DNA of 64,000 nt from Subtercola boreus. Its GTDB lineage: Bacteria; Actinomycetota; Actinomycetes; Actinomycetales; Microbacteriaceae. How positions within the stretch are numbered: the stretch's first letter is position 1; each line of letters starts with the position of its first letter. The notes under the pieces are model-generated. The model did not search any database and was not told the origin of the DNA. It saw nothing but the letters and a program-made list of their open reading frames with translations. A program made the position numbers and the translations under genes. The stretch is taken from positions 1 to 64,000 of the forward strand of contig NZ_NBXD01000020.1 in NCBI RefSeq assembly GCF_003399645.1, written 5' to 3'. This document shows, one piece after another, positions 21,537 through 52,223 of the stretch.

Positions 21537-23660
21537 GTGACTACAGATCCGTCCACACCCGAACCGTCCACACCCGATCCCACCGCTGATCCCGCAGCCG
21601 AGAACCGCACCGCCGCCGAGGTGCTCGCCGCGGTCGACCTCAGCGTTCCCGAAGATCTCAACGCGCCGGTCGCCGTCATCGACGTCGTCGCTCCCGACCC
21701 GCTGGTCGGGGATGCCTTCCTCACCGACACCACGTTCGCCGACCTCAAGATCGAGCCCGACCTCGTTCAGGCGCTGGCCTCGAAGGGCATCCTGCACCCG
21801 TTCCCGATCCAGACACAGACGATCCCCCTCGGCCTCGAGGGCCAGGACATCATCGGCCAGGCCAAGACGGGCACCGGCAAGACCTTCGGATTCGGCCTCC
21901 CCCTGCTGCAGCGCCTCGGCGCGAACCCCGAGCCCGGCGTGCAGGCGCTCGTCGTGGTGCCGACGCGCGAGCTCGCCGTGCAGGTCACCGAAGACCTCCA
22001 GCTCGCGGCCTCCAACCGCCCCACCACCGTCATCGCGATCTACGGCGGCAAGTCGTACGAGGGCCAGATCGAGCAGCTGAAGGCCGGCGCGCAGGTCGTC
22101 GTCGGAACCCCCGGCCGCCTTCTCGACCTCGCCGGCCAGCGCCTGCTCTCGCTGGCGAACGTCAAGGTGATGGTGCTCGACGAGGCCGACAAGATGCTCG
22201 ACCTCGGCTTTCTCGCCGACGTCGAGAAGCTCTTCTCCCAGACCCCGGCCGGCCGCCACACCATGCTCTTCTCGGCCACCATGCCCGGCCCGGTCGTCGC
22301 GCTGGCACGTCGCTTCATGTCGCGGCCCATCCACATCCGCGCGACCGATCCCGATGAGGGCCTGACGCAGGCGAACATCAAGCACGTCGTCTACCGCGCG
22401 CACAACCTCGACAAAGACGAGGTCATCGCGCGCATCCTGCAGGCCGAGGGCCGCGGCAAGACCGTCATCTTCACTCGCACCAAGCGCGCGGCCGCACGCC
22501 TCGTCGAAGAGCTCGGCGACCGCGGGTTCAACGCCGCCGCCGTGCACGGCGACCTCAACCAGGAGCAGCGCGAGCGTGCCATGGCCGCGTTCAAGGCCGG
22601 CAAGCGCGACGTGCTGATCGCCACGGATGTCGCGGCTCGCGGCATCGACGTGAACGACGTCACGCATGTGATCAACCACACCATCCCCGAAGACGAGAAG
22701 ACCTACCTGCACCGCGCCGGTCGCACCGGCCGCGCCGGCAAGACCGGAATCGCGGTGACCTTCGTCGACTGGGACGACCTCCACAAGTGGGCGCTCATCA
22801 ACCGCGCTCTCGACATGGGCCAGCCCGAACCGGTCGAGACCTACTCCTCGTCGCCGCACCTCTACACCGACCTCGACATCCCCGCGGGCGTGAAGGGTCG
22901 CCTGAAGCCGACCCCCGCTGCGAAGGGCCCGGAGGGCGCCGCAAGCCGCCCGCCGCGCGAAGGCGGATCGGGATCGCGCGGCCCGCGTGAGGGTGGCCGC
23001 GAGGGCGGTCGCGACGGCGGTCGCGGGGGCAGCAGCCGCGGCGACAGCAGCCGCGGCGACAGCGGGCGTGGCGACAGCCGGGGTGCGGGCAACGGCCGCA
23101 CCGGCGAGAGCCGCGGCACCGCAACCGCCGAGGCGGGAAACTTGGACAGCAGCCGCAGCACCGGCGGCACCGCCGGCGCCGGCACCACCGAGGCAGCCCG
23201 CGACAACCGTGGCAGCCAGGGTACCGGCCGCGGCACGCGTGACAGTTCGCGCGTCTATGCCGACAGCGACACCACCACTGCGTTCGAGGGCGCCCAGCGG
23301 CCCCCTCGCCTCCCCCGGGAGACAGCCGAGCCGCGCGACGGCGATGACCGCCCCCAGCGCGCGCGCAACCGCAGCCGCAACCGCTCCGGCGCATCCGGTG
23401 CCGCAGCCGGGAACGGGCAGGCCGGCACCCAGCAGGGCGGCAACCAGCAGGGCGGCTCCGCGTCGAGCTCCGAGGCCGTGGCCAGCGCGATGCACGGTGA
23501 GACCACGGCGGTGAGCTTCTCGGGTTCGGGCGAAGCGCAGGCCGCCGGCCGCAGTGAGGGCGCAGCATCCGGATCGCACGCCGGCCACGAGCACCACGAC
23601 GGCAACAGCGCGCCGCGTCGCCGCAGCCGCTCACGGGGCCGTGCGCCCCGCGCCGAGTAG
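21537..23660 (+). CDS. DEAD-box RNA helicase (RhlE/CsdA type)
   Basis: The 707-aa ATP-dependent RNA helicase shows, in order, the Q-motif region FADLKIEPDLVQALASKGI, QAKTGTGKTFGFGLPLLQR (motif I), VVVPTRELAVQV (Ia), GTPGRLLDL (Ib), MVLDEADKMLDLGF (II), LFSATMP (III), VIFTRTKRAAARL (IV), LIATDVAARGIDV (V) and HRAGRTGRAGKTG (VI). The C-terminal 250 or so residues are disordered and Arg/Gly/Ser-rich (DGGRGGSSRGDSSRGDSGRG), ending RRRSRSRGRAPRAE. Such tails bind RNA. GTG 21537 (VTTDPSTPEP) is preferred because the 47 residues before it look like translated leader. GTG 21396 is the alternative. A role in ribosome assembly or cold adaptation is inferred from the family. Confidence 0.92.
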   Translation: MTTDPSTPEPSTPDPTADPAAENRTAAEVLAAVDLSVPEDLNAPVAVIDVVAPDPLVGDAFLTDTTFADLKIEPDLVQALASKGILHPFPIQTQTIPLGLEGQDIIGQAKTGTGKTFGFGLPLLQRLGANPEPGVQALVVVPTRELAVQVTEDLQLAASNRPTTVIAIYGGKSYEGQIEQLKAGAQVVVGTPGRLLDLAGQRLLSLANVKVMVLDEADKMLDLGFLADVEKLFSQTPAGRHTMLFSATMPGPVVALARRFMSRPIHIRATDPDEGLTQANIKHVVYRAHNLDKDEVIARILQAEGRGKTVIFTRTKRAAARLVEELGDRGFNAAAVHGDLNQEQRERAMAAFKAGKRDVLIATDVAARGIDVNDVTHVINHTIPEDEKTYLHRAGRTGRAGKTGIAVTFVDWDDLHKWALINRALDMGQPEPVETYSSSPHLYTDLDIPAGVKGRLKPTPAAKGPEGAASRPPREGGSGSRGPREGGREGGRDGGRGGSSRGDSSRGDSGRGDSRGAGNGRTGESRGTATAEAGNLDSSRSTGGTAGAGTTEAARDNRGSQGTGRGTRDSSRVYADSDTTTAFEGAQRPPRLPRETAEPRDGDDRPQRARNRSRNRSGASGAAAGNGQAGTQQGGNQQGGSASSSEAVASAMHGETTAVSFSGSGEAQAAGRSEGAASGSHAGHEHHDGNSAPRRRSRSRGRAPRAE

Positions 23661-44633: not shown

Positions 44634-46025
44634 TCAGGCGAACAGGGCCTTGCCGAAGTAGTCGCCCGCGGCGCTGAGGCCAGGGGGAACCGCGTACACA
44701 CCTGAGCCGACGTGGCGGATGTACTCGTTCAGGCGATCCATCGAGCCGAGCTTCTGCTGAAGGGTGATGAACTGCTGCGGGTCGCGCTGGTACGAGATGA
44801 ACATGAGTCCCGCATCCAATCGGCCCACGCTGTCGATACCGTCGGTGAAGTTGTAGCCCCGCCGGAGGATCTTGGTGCCGTTGTTGTTCTCGTGCGCCGC
44901 CAGCGCCACGTGGGCGTTCGCCGGAATGACCGGCTTGCCGTCGGCACCGGTCGCCTGGAAGTCGGGGGTGTCGAACTCCTTCGTGCCCGTCAGCGGGGCA
45001 CCTTCGAGCTTCGTACGGCCGAAGACGGCGTGCTGGTCGGCGATGTAGTCGGTGTCCCAGGTCTCGATCAGCATGTGGATCTTGCGGGCCACGAGGTAGC
45101 TGCCACCGGTCATCCACGGCTGGTCGCTGCCGTCACCCACCCACACCTGCTGGGCGAAATCGTCATCGGTCTCGATGTTGCGGGTGCCGTCTTTGAACCC
45201 CATCAGGTTGCGCGGCGTCGCCCGGTCGCCGCTTCGGGATGCCCGGCCGAAACCCTGCACCGTCCACCGTGTGGTCGCGGTGGTGCGGGCCATTCGCGCA
45301 AGATTGCGGATGGCGTGGTAGGCGACCAGGGGATCGCTCGCGCAGGCCTGCACGCAGATGTCGCCGCCGGTGAACTCGGGCGTCAGGGCGTCGCTGGCGA
45401 ACGCAGGCAGGTCGTTCAGTGCGGCGGGCCTGTACTTCTTCCAGCCGAACCGGTCGTCGAACATCGACGGGGCGAACCCGACGGTGACGGTCAGCTGGTT
45501 CGCGCCCATGCCCGCGGCCTCGCCGGTGTCGCCCGGCACCGCGAGCTCCCGCTCGGGTTCGACCGCACCGACCGCGAGCCCCGCGGTGTATTGGGCGATC
45601 GCCGCAGACCATTTGGCGAGCATGACCTGCAGCTCGCTGGCCGACGTGGTGGTGACGTCGAAGACCATGAACACGAGATGATCCTGCGGCGGGGTGCGGA
45701 TGCCCGCCTGGTGCTCCCCATAGAACGGGTACGTCTCGTCGGCTTGGGCTGTGAGTTCGACCTGACCGGCCGAGGCGGCCTGGCCCGCGATTCCCGTGGC
45801 GGTGACGCCGATGGCCGCGCCGGCGGCGGCGCTCGATGCCGCGGCGGCGAAGAAGGCGCGGCGGCTGAGACCCGCGTGCGGGTCTCTCGGCCCAGCGCTG
45901 AGACCCGCGTGCGGGTCTCTCGGCCCAGCGCTGAGACCCGCGTGCTGGTCTCTCGGCTCAGCGCTGGGACCGGGCGCTACGGGGTCGCCCTGCCGGTCAT
46001 CCCGTTCGATCCTGTTGCGTCTCAC
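44634..46025 (-). CDS. efeB: EfeB: Tat-exported DyP-type peroxidase of the iron-uptake system
   Basis: The 463-aa haem peroxidase has a twin-arginine signal (GLSRRAFFAAAASSAAAGAA) near residue 53. The DyP domain shows the hallmark MGFKDGTRNIETDD with the catalytic Asp, and LDAGLMFISYQRDPQQFITL near the C terminus. It is exported folded and works with EfeU and EfeO in ferrous iron import or haem-iron release. The Tat signal is preceded by an unusual n-region of about 50 residues containing three copies of AGPRDPHAGLS-type repeats. The gene is directly adjacent to efeO and is the last of the efeUOB set. Confidence 0.93.
   Translation of the reverse strand: MRRNRIERDDRQGDPVAPGPSAEPRDQHAGLSAGPRDPHAGLSAGPRDPHAGLSRRAFFAAAASSAAAGAAIGVTATGIAGQAASAGQVELTAQADETYPFYGEHQAGIRTPPQDHLVFMVFDVTTTSASELQVMLAKWSAAIAQYTAGLAVGAVEPERELAVPGDTGEAAGMGANQLTVTVGFAPSMFDDRFGWKKYRPAALNDLPAFASDALTPEFTGGDICVQACASDPLVAYHAIRNLARMARTTATTRWTVQGFGRASRSGDRATPRNLMGFKDGTRNIETDDDFAQQVWVGDGSDQPWMTGGSYLVARKIHMLIETWDTDYIADQHAVFGRTKLEGAPLTGTKEFDTPDFQATGADGKPVIPANAHVALAAHENNNGTKILRRGYNFTDGIDSVGRLDAGLMFISYQRDPQQFITLQQKLGSMDRLNEYIRHVGSGVYAVPPGLSAAGDYFGKALFA
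45865..45963. repeat. 33-bp tandem repeat, 3 copies, each containing a palindrome, inside efeB
   Basis: Units start at 45865, 45898 and 45931. Units 1 and 2 are identical; unit 3 has two changes. Each of the first two contains the perfect 20-bp palindrome GAGACCCGCGTGCGGGTCTC. The array encodes 11-residue repeats in the n-region before the twin arginines. Confidence 0.9.
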
Positions 46026-49060: not shown

Positions 49061-49080
49061 ATAGGTAAGCCTACACTTAG
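49061..49080. promoter_or_regulatory. DtxR/IdeR-type iron box upstream of efeU
   Basis: TAGGTAAGCCTACACTTA within this interval matches the iron-box consensus TTAGGTTAGGCTAACCTAA in most positions. A further half-site-like AAGGGTTACCT follows at 49082-49092. A -10-like TATGTT on the minus strand (49058-49063) overlaps the box edge. Binding of an iron-loaded repressor would block efeU transcription. The box is 64 bp before the TTG start and 78 bp from the polymerase -10 on the other side. Confidence 0.82.
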
Positions 49081-49157
49081 TAAGGGTTACCTGCATTGGG
49101 AATGTGGCGATGTTCCCAGCCCCCCGCGAGGCGACAGCCGCCACCGCCTCGAGCGAC

Positions 49158-49169: not shown

Positions 49170-51818
49170 GTGTACGTCGTCATCTCCGGTGCCCCAACGG
49201 GCAGCGCCACCCTCACGCCGCTCGACGACTCCGGTCTGCCGGGCCCCGATGAGCCTGCCCAACAGCTCGCCGGCGACGACCTCGCGGAGGCCGTCGAAGC
49301 GTTGGAGCTCGAGAATCCACGGTGGGTGTGGGCCGACACGGCCAGCCGATACGGCTGGCTGCTGGCGCACGGGGTCCGTGTCGACCGGTGCCACGACCTT
49401 CGGCTGACGCGGGCGATCCTTCGATCATCCGCTCTCTCTGCGGGCAGTCGGCTCGCCCTGTCGACCCGTGGCGAGTGGGATGCGACAGCGCCGCCCACCG
49501 GTCCGGGGGCTGCCGCCGACGACGGTGAACGGGATGCCGCGGGCTCGGCGGTGGCGTTCGATTTCGACGGCGCCGTCGAACCCGGCGGCCCCGACGATGA
49601 GGAGGTGCTGGCGAATGAGGCCGTCGCAGAGCTCGTGCTGCAGCTCGACGCCATCCGCACCGCCACCGAGCCGAACCGGCTGCGGCTGCTCATTGCGGCG
49701 GAGTCGGCGGGCGCACTCGTCGCCGCAGAGATGACGCATGCCGGGCTGCCCTGGCACGAAGGCGTGCACGACGAACTGCTCACCGAGCTCCTGGGGCCTG
49801 AGGCACCGGCCGGGCAGCGCCCGGCCCGCCTCGAAGCGCTCGCCCAGGCCGTGCGGCGGGCGCTCGACGCACCCCAGCTGAACCCGGATTCGCCGCAGGA
49901 GCTGCTGCGCGCGCTCCGCGCCGCCGGGCTCAGTGTCACAACGACGCGCTCCTGGGAGTTGCAGGCAATCGAGCATCCGGTGATCCCGCCCCTGCTCGAA
50001 TACAAGAAGCTGTCGCGTCTCTTCACGGCAAATGGATGGTCGTGGATGGCGTCGTGGGTCAGAGACGGCCGCTTCCACCCCGACTACCTGCCGGGCGGGG
50101 TGGTGTCGGGGCGCTGGGCCGCGCGCGGCGGGGGCGCGCTGCAGTTGCCGAAACAGGTGCGTCGTGCGGTCACAGCGGATGACGGCTGGAAGCTCGTCGT
50201 CGCCGATGCGGCGCAGCTCGAACCGCGCATCCTCGCCGGCATCTCGGCCGACACCGTGATGGCGGCGGCCGGCCGGGGCTCCGACCTGTACGCCGGGATC
50301 GTCGAGAGCGGTGCGGTGAAGACGCGGGCCGAGGCGAAGGTGGCGATGCTCGGGGCGATGTACGGTGCCACCAGCGGTGAGAGCGGGCGGTTGCTGCCGC
50401 GGCTGGCGCGCGCGTTCCCCACCGCGCTGGACTACGTCGAGACCGCCGCGCGGGCCGGCGAGCGGGGCGAGATCGTCACCTCACGCCTCGGCCGCAGCGC
50501 CCCGCGCCCCGCCGAGACCTGGTGGGAGACGCAGGCGCTCGCGCGGGAGGGCGCCCCCGACGAGCGTGTGCAGCAGCTGGCGCGGCGGGAAGCCCGCGAC
50601 TGGGGTCGCTTCACGCGCAACTTCGTGGTTCAGGCGAGCGCGGCGGACTGGGCGCTGTGCTGGCTGGCCGACCTCCGCCGCCGCCTGGCGGCCCTTGCAC
50701 CCGAGCCGGAGCCCGAGCTCGAGCCCGAGCTCGAGCCGGCCGCGCCGGACCCCTCTGCGACCACACTCGCCGCGCCCGAGCCCTCGGCGCCCGGCGCCGG
50801 CTCCCCCGCCGCCACCGCCGCCGTCGCGCCAGCCGCCGTCGCGCCAGCCGCCGTCGCGTCCGGATCACCGGCTGCGCCCGGCCCTGCAACCGCACACCCC
50901 GCACACGACGGTCTCGCCGGCGGTGCCGCTGGCGTCGCCACCGACGCGGATGCCTCGGCCGACGCCACGGCGGCCGCGGAACTGTCACCGGTCGAACGGG
51001 AGGCCGCGCGGATCGCCGCCATCGAGGCGGAGATCGCCGAGCGCGAACGCCGCAAGGCCGCGGACTCCCCCTTCAAGGCCGCCGACCCCGTCGCCGCCAT
51101 GGCCGCCCGCCTCGCCGAGCTCAGGTCCGCCGGCCGCAGCGTCCGTCCCACCGCCGCTCCCGCGGCCGCTCCCGCCGCAGCTCACGCCGCCGTGAGCACG
51201 ACCACCACCGGCCCGGCCCCCGGAAACCCCGCCACTGCACCCGCCACCACCGCGGCGACTCCTCCCACCGCGCCCGCGACGTCCGCTCGCCCCGGCACCA
51301 CGCAGCCACCGACCGTAGCCGCGGGTGGGCCGGGCACCGCCGCCCTCCAGGGCGGGGCGAGCACCACTGCCCTCCCGGGTCAGGCGGTCACCGCAGCCCT
51401 CCAGGGCGGGGCGGGCACCACTGCCCTCCAGGGTCAGGCGGGCACCACTGCCCTCCAGAGTAGGGCGGTCACCACTGCCCTCCAGGGTCAGGCGGGCACC
51501 ACTGCCCTCCAGGGTCAGGCGGGCACTGCTGCCCTGCAGGGCGGGGCGAGCACCGCCGCCCTCCAGGGTGGAGCGGGCGTCGGGGGCGGCGCAGCGGTGG
51601 TCGCGGGGCGGGCGGCAGCGCCGTTCGCGCGGGCGCCGCACCTCGTGTTCTTCCTGCACGACGAGGTCATCGTGCACGCCCCGGCGGCGCTGGCCGAGGA
51701 GGTCGCGGAGGCCATCCGTGCCTCCGCAGCATCCGCCACCCGCCTGCTCTTCGGCCAGTTTCCGCTCGACGTGCCGCTCGACATCAGCATCGTCGACTCC
51801 TACGCCGACGCCGACTGA
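49170..51818 (+). CDS. DNA polymerase I-like protein (bifunctional 3'-5' exonuclease/DNA polymerase type) with a large insertion
   Basis: The 882-aa family A polymerase homolog lacks a 5' nuclease. The N-terminal part resembles a degenerate exonuclease. The polymerase motifs are VVADAAQLEPRILAGISAD (motif A), AKVAMLGAMYGATSGESGRL (motif B side) and VFFLHDEVIVHAPAALAEEV (motif C). Relatives I know are about 560-620 aa. Here about 310 residues (about 510-820) of Ala/Pro/Thr-rich sequence are inserted between LADLRRRLAAL and motif C. They include nine 9-residue repeats of the type TTALQGQAG and one predicted helix, AARIAAIEAEIAERERRKAA. The function of such proteins is not settled; repair synthesis is a guess. 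It is divergent from efeU. Confidence 0.85.
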   Translation: MYVVISGAPTGSATLTPLDDSGLPGPDEPAQQLAGDDLAEAVEALELENPRWVWADTASRYGWLLAHGVRVDRCHDLRLTRAILRSSALSAGSRLALSTRGEWDATAPPTGPGAAADDGERDAAGSAVAFDFDGAVEPGGPDDEEVLANEAVAELVLQLDAIRTATEPNRLRLLIAAESAGALVAAEMTHAGLPWHEGVHDELLTELLGPEAPAGQRPARLEALAQAVRRALDAPQLNPDSPQELLRALRAAGLSVTTTRSWELQAIEHPVIPPLLEYKKLSRLFTANGWSWMASWVRDGRFHPDYLPGGVVSGRWAARGGGALQLPKQVRRAVTADDGWKLVVADAAQLEPRILAGISADTVMAAAGRGSDLYAGIVESGAVKTRAEAKVAMLGAMYGATSGESGRLLPRLARAFPTALDYVETAARAGERGEIVTSRLGRSAPRPAETWWETQALAREGAPDERVQQLARREARDWGRFTRNFVVQASAADWALCWLADLRRRLAALAPEPEPELEPELEPAAPDPSATTLAAPEPSAPGAGSPAATAAVAPAAVAPAAVASGSPAAPGPATAHPAHDGLAGGAAGVATDADASADATAAAELSPVEREAARIAAIEAEIAERERRKAADSPFKAADPVAAMAARLAELRSAGRSVRPTAAPAAAPAAAHAAVSTTTTGPAPGNPATAPATTAATPPTAPATSARPGTTQPPTVAAGGPGTAALQGGASTTALPGQAVTAALQGGAGTTALQGQAGTTALQSRAVTTALQGQAGTTALQGQAGTAALQGGASTAALQGGAGVGGGAAVVAGRAAAPFARAPHLVFFLHDEVIVHAPAALAEEVAEAIRASAASATRLLFGQFPLDVPLDISIVDSYADAD
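51336..51578. repeat. 27-bp coding tandem repeat, 9 copies
   Basis: Nine in-frame units of 27 bp encode T(T/A)AL(Q/P)-G/S-(Q/G/R)A(G/S/V). The DNA core is CTGCCCTCCAGGG. Units are 80-100% alike, implying recent expansion by slippage or unequal exchange. The array is wholly within the polymerase-like gene. Confidence 0.92.
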
Positions 51819-52223
51819 CCCCACCCGACCCCACCCCTGTCTCCCACGCCACCCCTGTCTCCCACCCCACCCCTGTCTGCCCGCCCGCCTAGCTACCTGC
51901 CAGCAGCCGAGCGCAGAACCGACACGTTCGTGGGGGCCCGCGCCCAATGGTGCGGCGGAGGATCGAAATGGCGTCCATTCCCGCGATAAGTGGCGCTAAC
52001 ACCCCGGCCGTCGCACCAGAAGGCGCGCTTCCCGCTCGGACGGAGCCGGGAAGACCCGACCCGAATACACCGGAGGATCGACTGGGCTCAGTCCGGGTGG
52101 GTTCCCGTGACGCGAGACGGCCTGGGCCGGAAACGACGGAGCCCCCGCCGGCGAGTCGAGGACTCGGCCGGCGAGGGCTTCGGGAGCGGGCGCGAACCGC
52201 GCCGCTCAGTGGTTCAGCAGAAC
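51819..52223. other. Gene-free spacer between the polymerase-like gene and typA
   Basis: These 405 bp contain no convincing gene. Three direct copies of a CCCCTGTCTCCCA-like motif lie at about 51835-51880. An imperfect inverted repeat spans about 52048-52118 (CGGGAAGACCCGACCCG against CGGGTGGGTTCCCG). The typA terminator hairpin is at 52140-52179. The small frames across it have no ribosome site and a composition typical of chance. Confidence 0.6.
52140..52179 (-). terminator. Hairpin terminator of typA
   Basis: The stem AGCCCCCGCCGGCGAGTC pairs with GACTCGGCCGGCGAGGGCT apart from one mismatch and one bulge, around the loop GAG. It lies 45 bp after the typA stop. There is no strong T tract. 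Confidence 0.6.

Follow-up and report, generated by a model that had tools for sequence, protein, structure and literature searches.

A second family-A DNA polymerase of Subtercola boreus carries, in the loop that precedes motif C of its palm, a 56-residue block that is predicted to be helical and that evolves under purifying selection, set between two long arms for which mostly disorder is predicted. The gene lies on the forward strand of the stretch of 64,000 nucleotides of contig NZ_NBXD01000020.1 that was analyzed here (the window). The position of the block, its restriction to one clade and one gene in what was searched, its purifying selection and its predicted helices are regarded as established. 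The whole, i.e., a PolA2/APEX-type enzyme with a selected docking block on slippage-grown spacer arms, is a reading that we consider rather probable.

According to this reading, the polymerase would be a family-A enzyme devoid of a 5'-3' exonuclease and with a dead-looking 3'-5' exonuclease domain, whose palm loop would hang off the far end of the motif C strand, where its length need not disrupt the fold. In a G+C-rich, repeat-prone gene, the loop would grow by slippage, and one Subtercola lineage would have kept in it a helical block on two mostly disordered arms. This block would serve as a docking module on a tether, delivering a partner protein or DNA to the enzyme, and the arms with their nine repeats would be a spacer whose exact sequence is of little importance; the block might even, although we propose this more tentatively, partly replace the contact with the sliding clamp. 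If true, a selected and probably folded module resides within the palm of a polymerase, in a loop that is hypervariable and filled with repeats. Short-loop relatives in the same genus are available for comparison, so that both the origin of such a module and a possible partner change in a poorly understood actinobacterial polymerase can be tested directly.

The polymerase and its class

The gene is a single open frame from a GTG codon at 49104 to the stop codon ending at 51818 (+ strand, 904 aa), with a GTG at 49170, the start used in an earlier note on this DNA, as a possible alternative. Its product matched NF011538 (PRK14975.1-1) with 730.7 bits, well above the curated cut-off of 389, and Pfam DNA_pol_A, the sole Pfam domain found in the protein, with 62.4 bits (cut-off 34.3). 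In Foldseek, the model of the window protein resembled Bst and other Pol I structures, Bst Pol I being the best match (E 3.8e-13). Based on the sequence and the AF2 model, thumb, palm and fingers extend over 49671..50696 (+ strand), closing with the long helix that precedes the loop. This part includes motif A (D368-R375, 50205-50228) and motif B (R408, K412 and Y420, 50325-50363), and motif C (H852-D853-E854) is encoded at 51657..51665, all on the + strand; the set of family-A catalytic motifs is hence complete, as the earlier note had read it.

No 5'-3' exonuclease domain was found by Pfam in the window polymerase, and a complete PolA is encoded elsewhere in the same genome (contig C14), where a 347-aa frame on contig C25 also gives a 5'-3' exonuclease-like match. 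The combination that marks PolA2/APEX enzymes, i.e., absence of this domain plus a separate PolA1 in the genome, is thus found here. The AF2 secondary structure further delimits an apparently vestigial 3'-5' exonuclease-like domain at about residues 24-110 (49173..49433, + strand). Its first strand lacks DxE, the Klenow 3'-5' exonuclease motif, and the same was read by eye in all 12 Subtercola proteins, two of which (L004 and L005) show a DxE further on, within the first 42 residues; the domain of the window polymerase is described as dead-looking.

The actinobacterial PolA2/APEX group is characterized in a 2026 survey by an inactivated 3'-5' exonuclease with a beta-clamp motif QxxLF in a loop of that domain (PMC12926913). 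As far as the group is described there, the window protein is like it in accompanying PolA1 as an additional family-A enzyme that has no 5'-3' exonuclease domain, and in its apparently vestigial 3'-5' exonuclease domain with a loop at the clamp-motif site. It is unlike the usual members in that its clamp motif has no LF core and in that its palm loop is about 300 residues longer and harbors the helical block; the main text of the survey nowhere uses the word 'insertion'. By its layout, the window protein appears to fit PolA2/APEX, the group of S. coelicolor PolA2 (CAD55317), an assignment that, because QxxLF itself is absent, rests on the other features.

Length and position of the palm loop

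From W516, the conserved tryptophan of the palm helix (QASAADW segment), to HDE there are 335 residues in the window protein, versus 24-69 (median 31) in 90 family loci from other genera, which amounts to an excess of about 300 residues over the family median. The same distance did not exceed 70 in the 78 named loci from outside Subtercola, or 63 in 20 order-level loci. Both the large insert before motif C and the short link of homologs, which the earlier note had described, are therefore real. Within Subtercola, where 11 of the 12 genomes could be measured and the twelfth ends at a contig end, the values were 38, 51, 63, 73, 82, 89, 246, 247, 255, 281 and 335. A conserved length of the insertion among orthologs, which would have refuted the observation of the earlier note, was thus not found across the genus, and even the five long loops that could be measured differ from one another. 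The reading frame is open through the loop in those 11 genomes and, in the twelfth, as far as the contig extends. Two of the loci compared showed peculiarities of their own: L240 (order-level genome G270) has, downstream of its polymerase, a second region that matches the profile at its C-terminal end only (494-555), possibly a duplicated fragment, and in Glaciihabitans sp. dw_435 (L138:4001-5671) the matched polymerase range contains one stop codon, pointing to either a broken gene or joined frames.

The loop begins where the long helix ends, at about residue 531, and reaches as far as the strand leading to HDE (846-851 in the AF2 model); it is composed of an acidic, mostly disordered arm, the 56-residue block and a low-complexity arm holding nine repeats. 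The insert adjoins motif C, as had been claimed, in sequence only, and the proximity to the active site that was also suggested need not hold in space, since both ends of the insert lie at the far end of the motif C strand in the model.

Conservation and selection in the helical block

The 'charged helix' noticed previously is real and corresponds to the part of the insert that matters, namely the block at residues 627-682 (50982..51149, + strand), which is supported by dN/dS, codon positions and the AF2 helices. It is present in 6 of the 12 Subtercola genomes, in frame and without stops in all six carriers. Among five of them (10 pairs), dN/dS was 0.02-0.11 for the block versus 0.06-0.15 for the polymerase core, and third codon positions held 73-96% of the block differences. 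In pairs with L004, the most distant carrier, dN/dS was 0.23-0.37 versus 0.12-0.19, and third positions held 51-56% of the differences. Because the differences concentrate at third codon positions, the frame of the block is translated and selected. In line with this, nonsynonymous differences per site were rarer than synonymous ones in 15 of 15 pairs (p 1.3e-4 to 9.5e-14, from a simple count over pairs that are not independent).

Whether the block is more conserved than the core was also tested, and this idea was dropped: invariant positions among the five carriers numbered 48/56 in the block versus 274/339 in the core (p = 0.46), and with L004 added (37/56 versus 261/339) the block was the less conserved of the two. 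Judging from these alignments, it appears about as conserved as the core among five carriers, with the sixth (L004) more diverged; the six carriers are a small sample that includes two close S. boreus strains.

Predicted structure and possible function of the block

In the AF2 model of the window protein (43 sequences), the block forms helices at 629-653 and 662-675 with ten-residue mean pLDDT values of about 74-88. A similar profile was predicted for S. boreus L111 (23 sequences; helices 639-663 and 672-685; about 71-85), although the two models are not independent because their alignments overlap. By contrast to the block, pLDDT was under 50 over most of both arms, at residues 555-619 and 680-834 in the window protein and at 559-625 and 691-793 in L111, such that the large disordered loop envisaged in the earlier note agrees with the prediction for most of the insert. 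Its proposal that the loop recruits partners is favored for the helical block alone, which is under purifying selection, and not for the repeats and arms. Selection on the block could also stem from folding or solubility instead of docking.

Inserts in family-A polymerases offer several points of comparison. Insert 3 of Pol theta lies just before motif C, and the thioredoxin-binding domain of T7 DNA polymerase is located in the thumb. Pol theta, a family-A enzyme whose exonuclease domain is dead, contains disordered inserts (PMC9962433, PMC9841435); one of these papers assigns insert 3 (33 residues) to the palm, and the other assigns loop 3 to the fingers. Compared by their descriptions, the Pol theta inserts are much shorter than the loop of the window protein and are described as conserved loops. 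Insert 3 of Pol nu is placed elsewhere (PMC5472330). The thioredoxin-binding domain of the T7 enzyme, which is reported as flexible, docks a host protein and confers processivity, provides a functional model for the block; it occurs, however, around residue 300 and has a known partner (PMC5984650), whereas the block is in the palm loop and its partner is hypothetical. Plant organellar polymerases are like the window protein in having lineage-specific inserts in the polymerase domain, which have been tied to lesion bypass and end joining, and unlike it in that these inserts are in thumb and fingers, insertion 1 being lysine-rich (PMC7699545). Functional family-A inserts are hence already known from Pol theta, plant organellar polymerases and T7 with thioredoxin, as far as these sources describe them. 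None of the known systems compared has, in these descriptions, a similarly large hypervariable loop that holds a distinct block under selection at the corresponding site, and no insert at this PolA2 site was found among the titles and abstract openings of the literature search results that were listed.

These systems also suggest that the block may act within the polymerase itself by folding back on the palm, the thumb or bound DNA, and so alter processivity or lesion bypass in the manner of the Pol theta inserts. This is a possibility to which we assign a minor share, and it overlaps with the docking reading where the target is DNA. Effects of family-A inserts on bypass and end joining have been reported (PMC9962433, PMC7699545), and the block is slightly basic (10-11 K/R versus 8-9 D/E) and sits beside an acidic arm. 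However, the models show two long arms with disorder over most of their length, as one would expect of a tether rather than of a part packed onto the enzyme, and a docking module on a spacer is the reading that we retain.

Sliding-clamp motif and exonuclease-polymerase linker

In the linker between the exonuclease and polymerase domains, where relatives carry xxxLF, the window polymerase shows a degenerate sliding-clamp motif site that reads SAVAF (residues 148-152; 49545..49559, + strand; motif according to PMC12926913), and QxxLF is not present at it. Within the usable region only, taken as about 210 residues, [LM]F was found at or near this site in 67/68 family, 72/74 named and 15/16 order loci, and strict QxxLF in 2, 11 and 7 of the same sets; pooled, these sets, which share species, gave 154/158 and 20/158, respectively. 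Where the linker proper could be cut out, 55 of 56 family loci had [LM]F. Within Subtercola, by contrast, [LM]F is kept in only 5 of 12 proteins (L004, L009, L010, L011 and L012) and strict QxxLF in 2 of 12, and we read the absence in the window protein as a loss within the PolA2 group.

Among the six block carriers, L004 alone keeps the LF core, which is missing in the other five, including the window protein. Since L005 and L006 also lack LF and have no block, LF would have been lost at least two times on the tree, provided that it was not regained. The loss of the clamp motif and the presence of the block are not tightly linked, given that L004 has both and L005 and L006 lack both, and their association is suggestive only. 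When whole proteins of the genus were scanned for a replacement clamp-like motif, none was found; the matches were confined to the motifs that L004 and L010 have in their linkers.

Because the LF core is missing in five of the six carriers, the block may replace clamp tethering. A stronger form of this idea would be a recruitment switch in progress, in which the PolA2 of one Subtercola lineage loses its clamp motif and gains, in the repeat-prone palm loop and on long disordered tethers, a new, orphan helical module recruiting a different partner, with L004 as an intermediate; this we advance as a somewhat doubtful extension of the docking reading.

The linker itself measures 80-153 residues in Subtercola, compared with a median of 71 (range 58-189) in 50 measurable family loci, so long linkers are not confined to the genus. 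In L007, L008, L011 and L012, it holds tandem repeats of its own, recognized by eye (for example GGGTR/GGGTE, ARPGE and SSPTTP), and is thus a second repeat-prone site in the polymerase gene of congeners.

Arms and repeat array

The left arm (50697..50981, + strand) is acidic, with 0 K/R and 13 D/E, and its residues 555-619 are predicted to be disordered. On the other side of the block, an A/P/T-rich, almost uncharged right arm with predicted disorder (51150..51332, + strand) is followed by nine in-frame 27-bp units encoding GTTALQGGA-like nonapeptides, also predicted to be disordered (51333..51575, + strand), and by the glycine/alanine tail of the loop (51576..51626, + strand). The units share a mean pairwise identity of 0.83 and gave the top score (309) among the 31 TRF rows of the window, in agreement with the nine near-identical repeats reported before; the count of nine is as assembled in an 86-contig draft. 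NCBIfam matches of the array to RTX-toxin and calcium-repeat models (21.4 bits versus a cut-off of 1000, and 19.4 versus 625) were attributed to composition and discarded.

Relative to the majority unit, codons of the array differ by 6 synonymous and 15 nonsynonymous changes, a split expected without selection at 29% synonymous sites. The repeats consequently show no sign of purifying selection, and their amino acids vary freely. The arms could be aligned among five carriers only with many gaps (29-61% identity). The left arm is acidic in every carrier, its net charge ranging from -9 to -21, and the right arm is at net +2 to +5 in the five where it is complete. In congeners, this loop contains short repeats of other kinds, i.e., 45 bp in 2.2 copies in L002 and, by eye, GTAAL-like units in L006 and PGANHVAAPA-like units in L011. 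This surface loop, which joins the long palm helix to the motif C strand, thus appears to be a repeat-prone site. The amino-acid tandem repeats of Borgs are comparable in that independent in-frame repeats make new disordered regions, with a hotspot, but they reportedly are perfect copies on which selection is very strong (PMC9879509), whereas the repeats of the window protein differ freely in amino acids.

The behavior of the array and the poor alignment of the arms, together with repeats that differ between genomes, a full PolA in the same genome and a modest loop growth in other genera too, up to 70 residues, would be compatible with a neutral expansion, in which the entire insert is a functionless surface loop grown by slippage in a dispensable enzyme. 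For the insert as a whole we judge this unlikely, as it is contradicted for the block, which shows purifying selection and has kept its frame in each of the six carriers. The earlier suggestion that the insert is tolerated because the enzyme is not essential likewise suits the repeats and arms and does not suit the block.

Distribution and origin of the block

In a tree of the polymerase core for which 18 family sequences served as the outgroup, all six carriers fell on one branch (support 96/92), which fits a single gain of the block; their grouping with L005 and L006 was weaker (89/82). A profile of the block retrieved the six Subtercola genes from 398 family genomes with E values of 1e-34 to 3e-29, the next match being at 6.1e-4, and 114 of the 398 genomes gave some match with E no higher than 0.1. 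The 296 class genomes yielded one match besides the window (E 5.5e-4), and in its own genome the profile had one match. These searches scored limited candidates per genome (e.g., 16) after a loose prefilter, so that a very diverged copy could escape. Eleven weak family matches were read in translation. A 20-residue likeness (AAMAxRxAExxSxG) in a 173-aa frame common to L208, L211 and L214 was taken as chance, as this frame seems to be antisense.

The phage collection, searched at E 10, and the viral contigs contained nothing that matched the block; plasmids gave only one half-length match (E 5) and PDB nothing convincing (best E 0.37), and the best values of the block in Pfam (E 0.01) and NCBIfam (E 0.017) were below cut-off; Pfam ABC_tran_CTD (E 0.01, 16.5 bits versus a cut-off of 32) was not accepted. 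In the collections searched, no convincing relative thus emerged outside the Subtercola clade. The presence of the block on one branch and its absence from the rest of the tree could also be explained by capture of a domain from a phage, a plasmid or another gene, but the outcome of the phage, plasmid and viral searches, the weak matches at most in family and class genomes and the sub-threshold domain hits make such an origin quite improbable. An assembly or frame artefact, which the repeat array in an 86-contig draft might bring to mind and against which the earlier note had advised a check, is hardly credible as the cause of the insert, given that the same 56-aa block occurs without stops in the same loop of six genomes, one of them assembled in 2 contigs (G001).

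Genomic surroundings

Between the polymerase gene and a divergent efeU-like gene, at 49061-49079, the window contains a putative DtxR/IdeR-type iron box, ATAGGTAAGCCTACACTTA, with 3 mismatches to the DtxR/IdeR consensus, compared with a mean of 0.00 in 100 shuffles. GGTWAGCCTACACTTA is found upstream of the polymerase in 12 of 12 Subtercola genomes, and the polymerase may share an iron-regulated promoter region.

Further short repeats were observed in other parts of the window. At 45864-45971, a 33-bp repeat in 3.3 copies encodes 11-residue repeats just before the Tat-like SRRAFF motif of an EfeB-like protein. Short repeats at 22989-23078 provide a DEAD-box-helicase-like protein with RGG/RGDS-like segments in its C-terminal tail, and a further 15-bp repeat is located at 23417-23456. 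Finally, an 18-bp tandem repeat of 2.8 copies (51828-51878) begins about ten bases past the stop codon of the polymerase gene.
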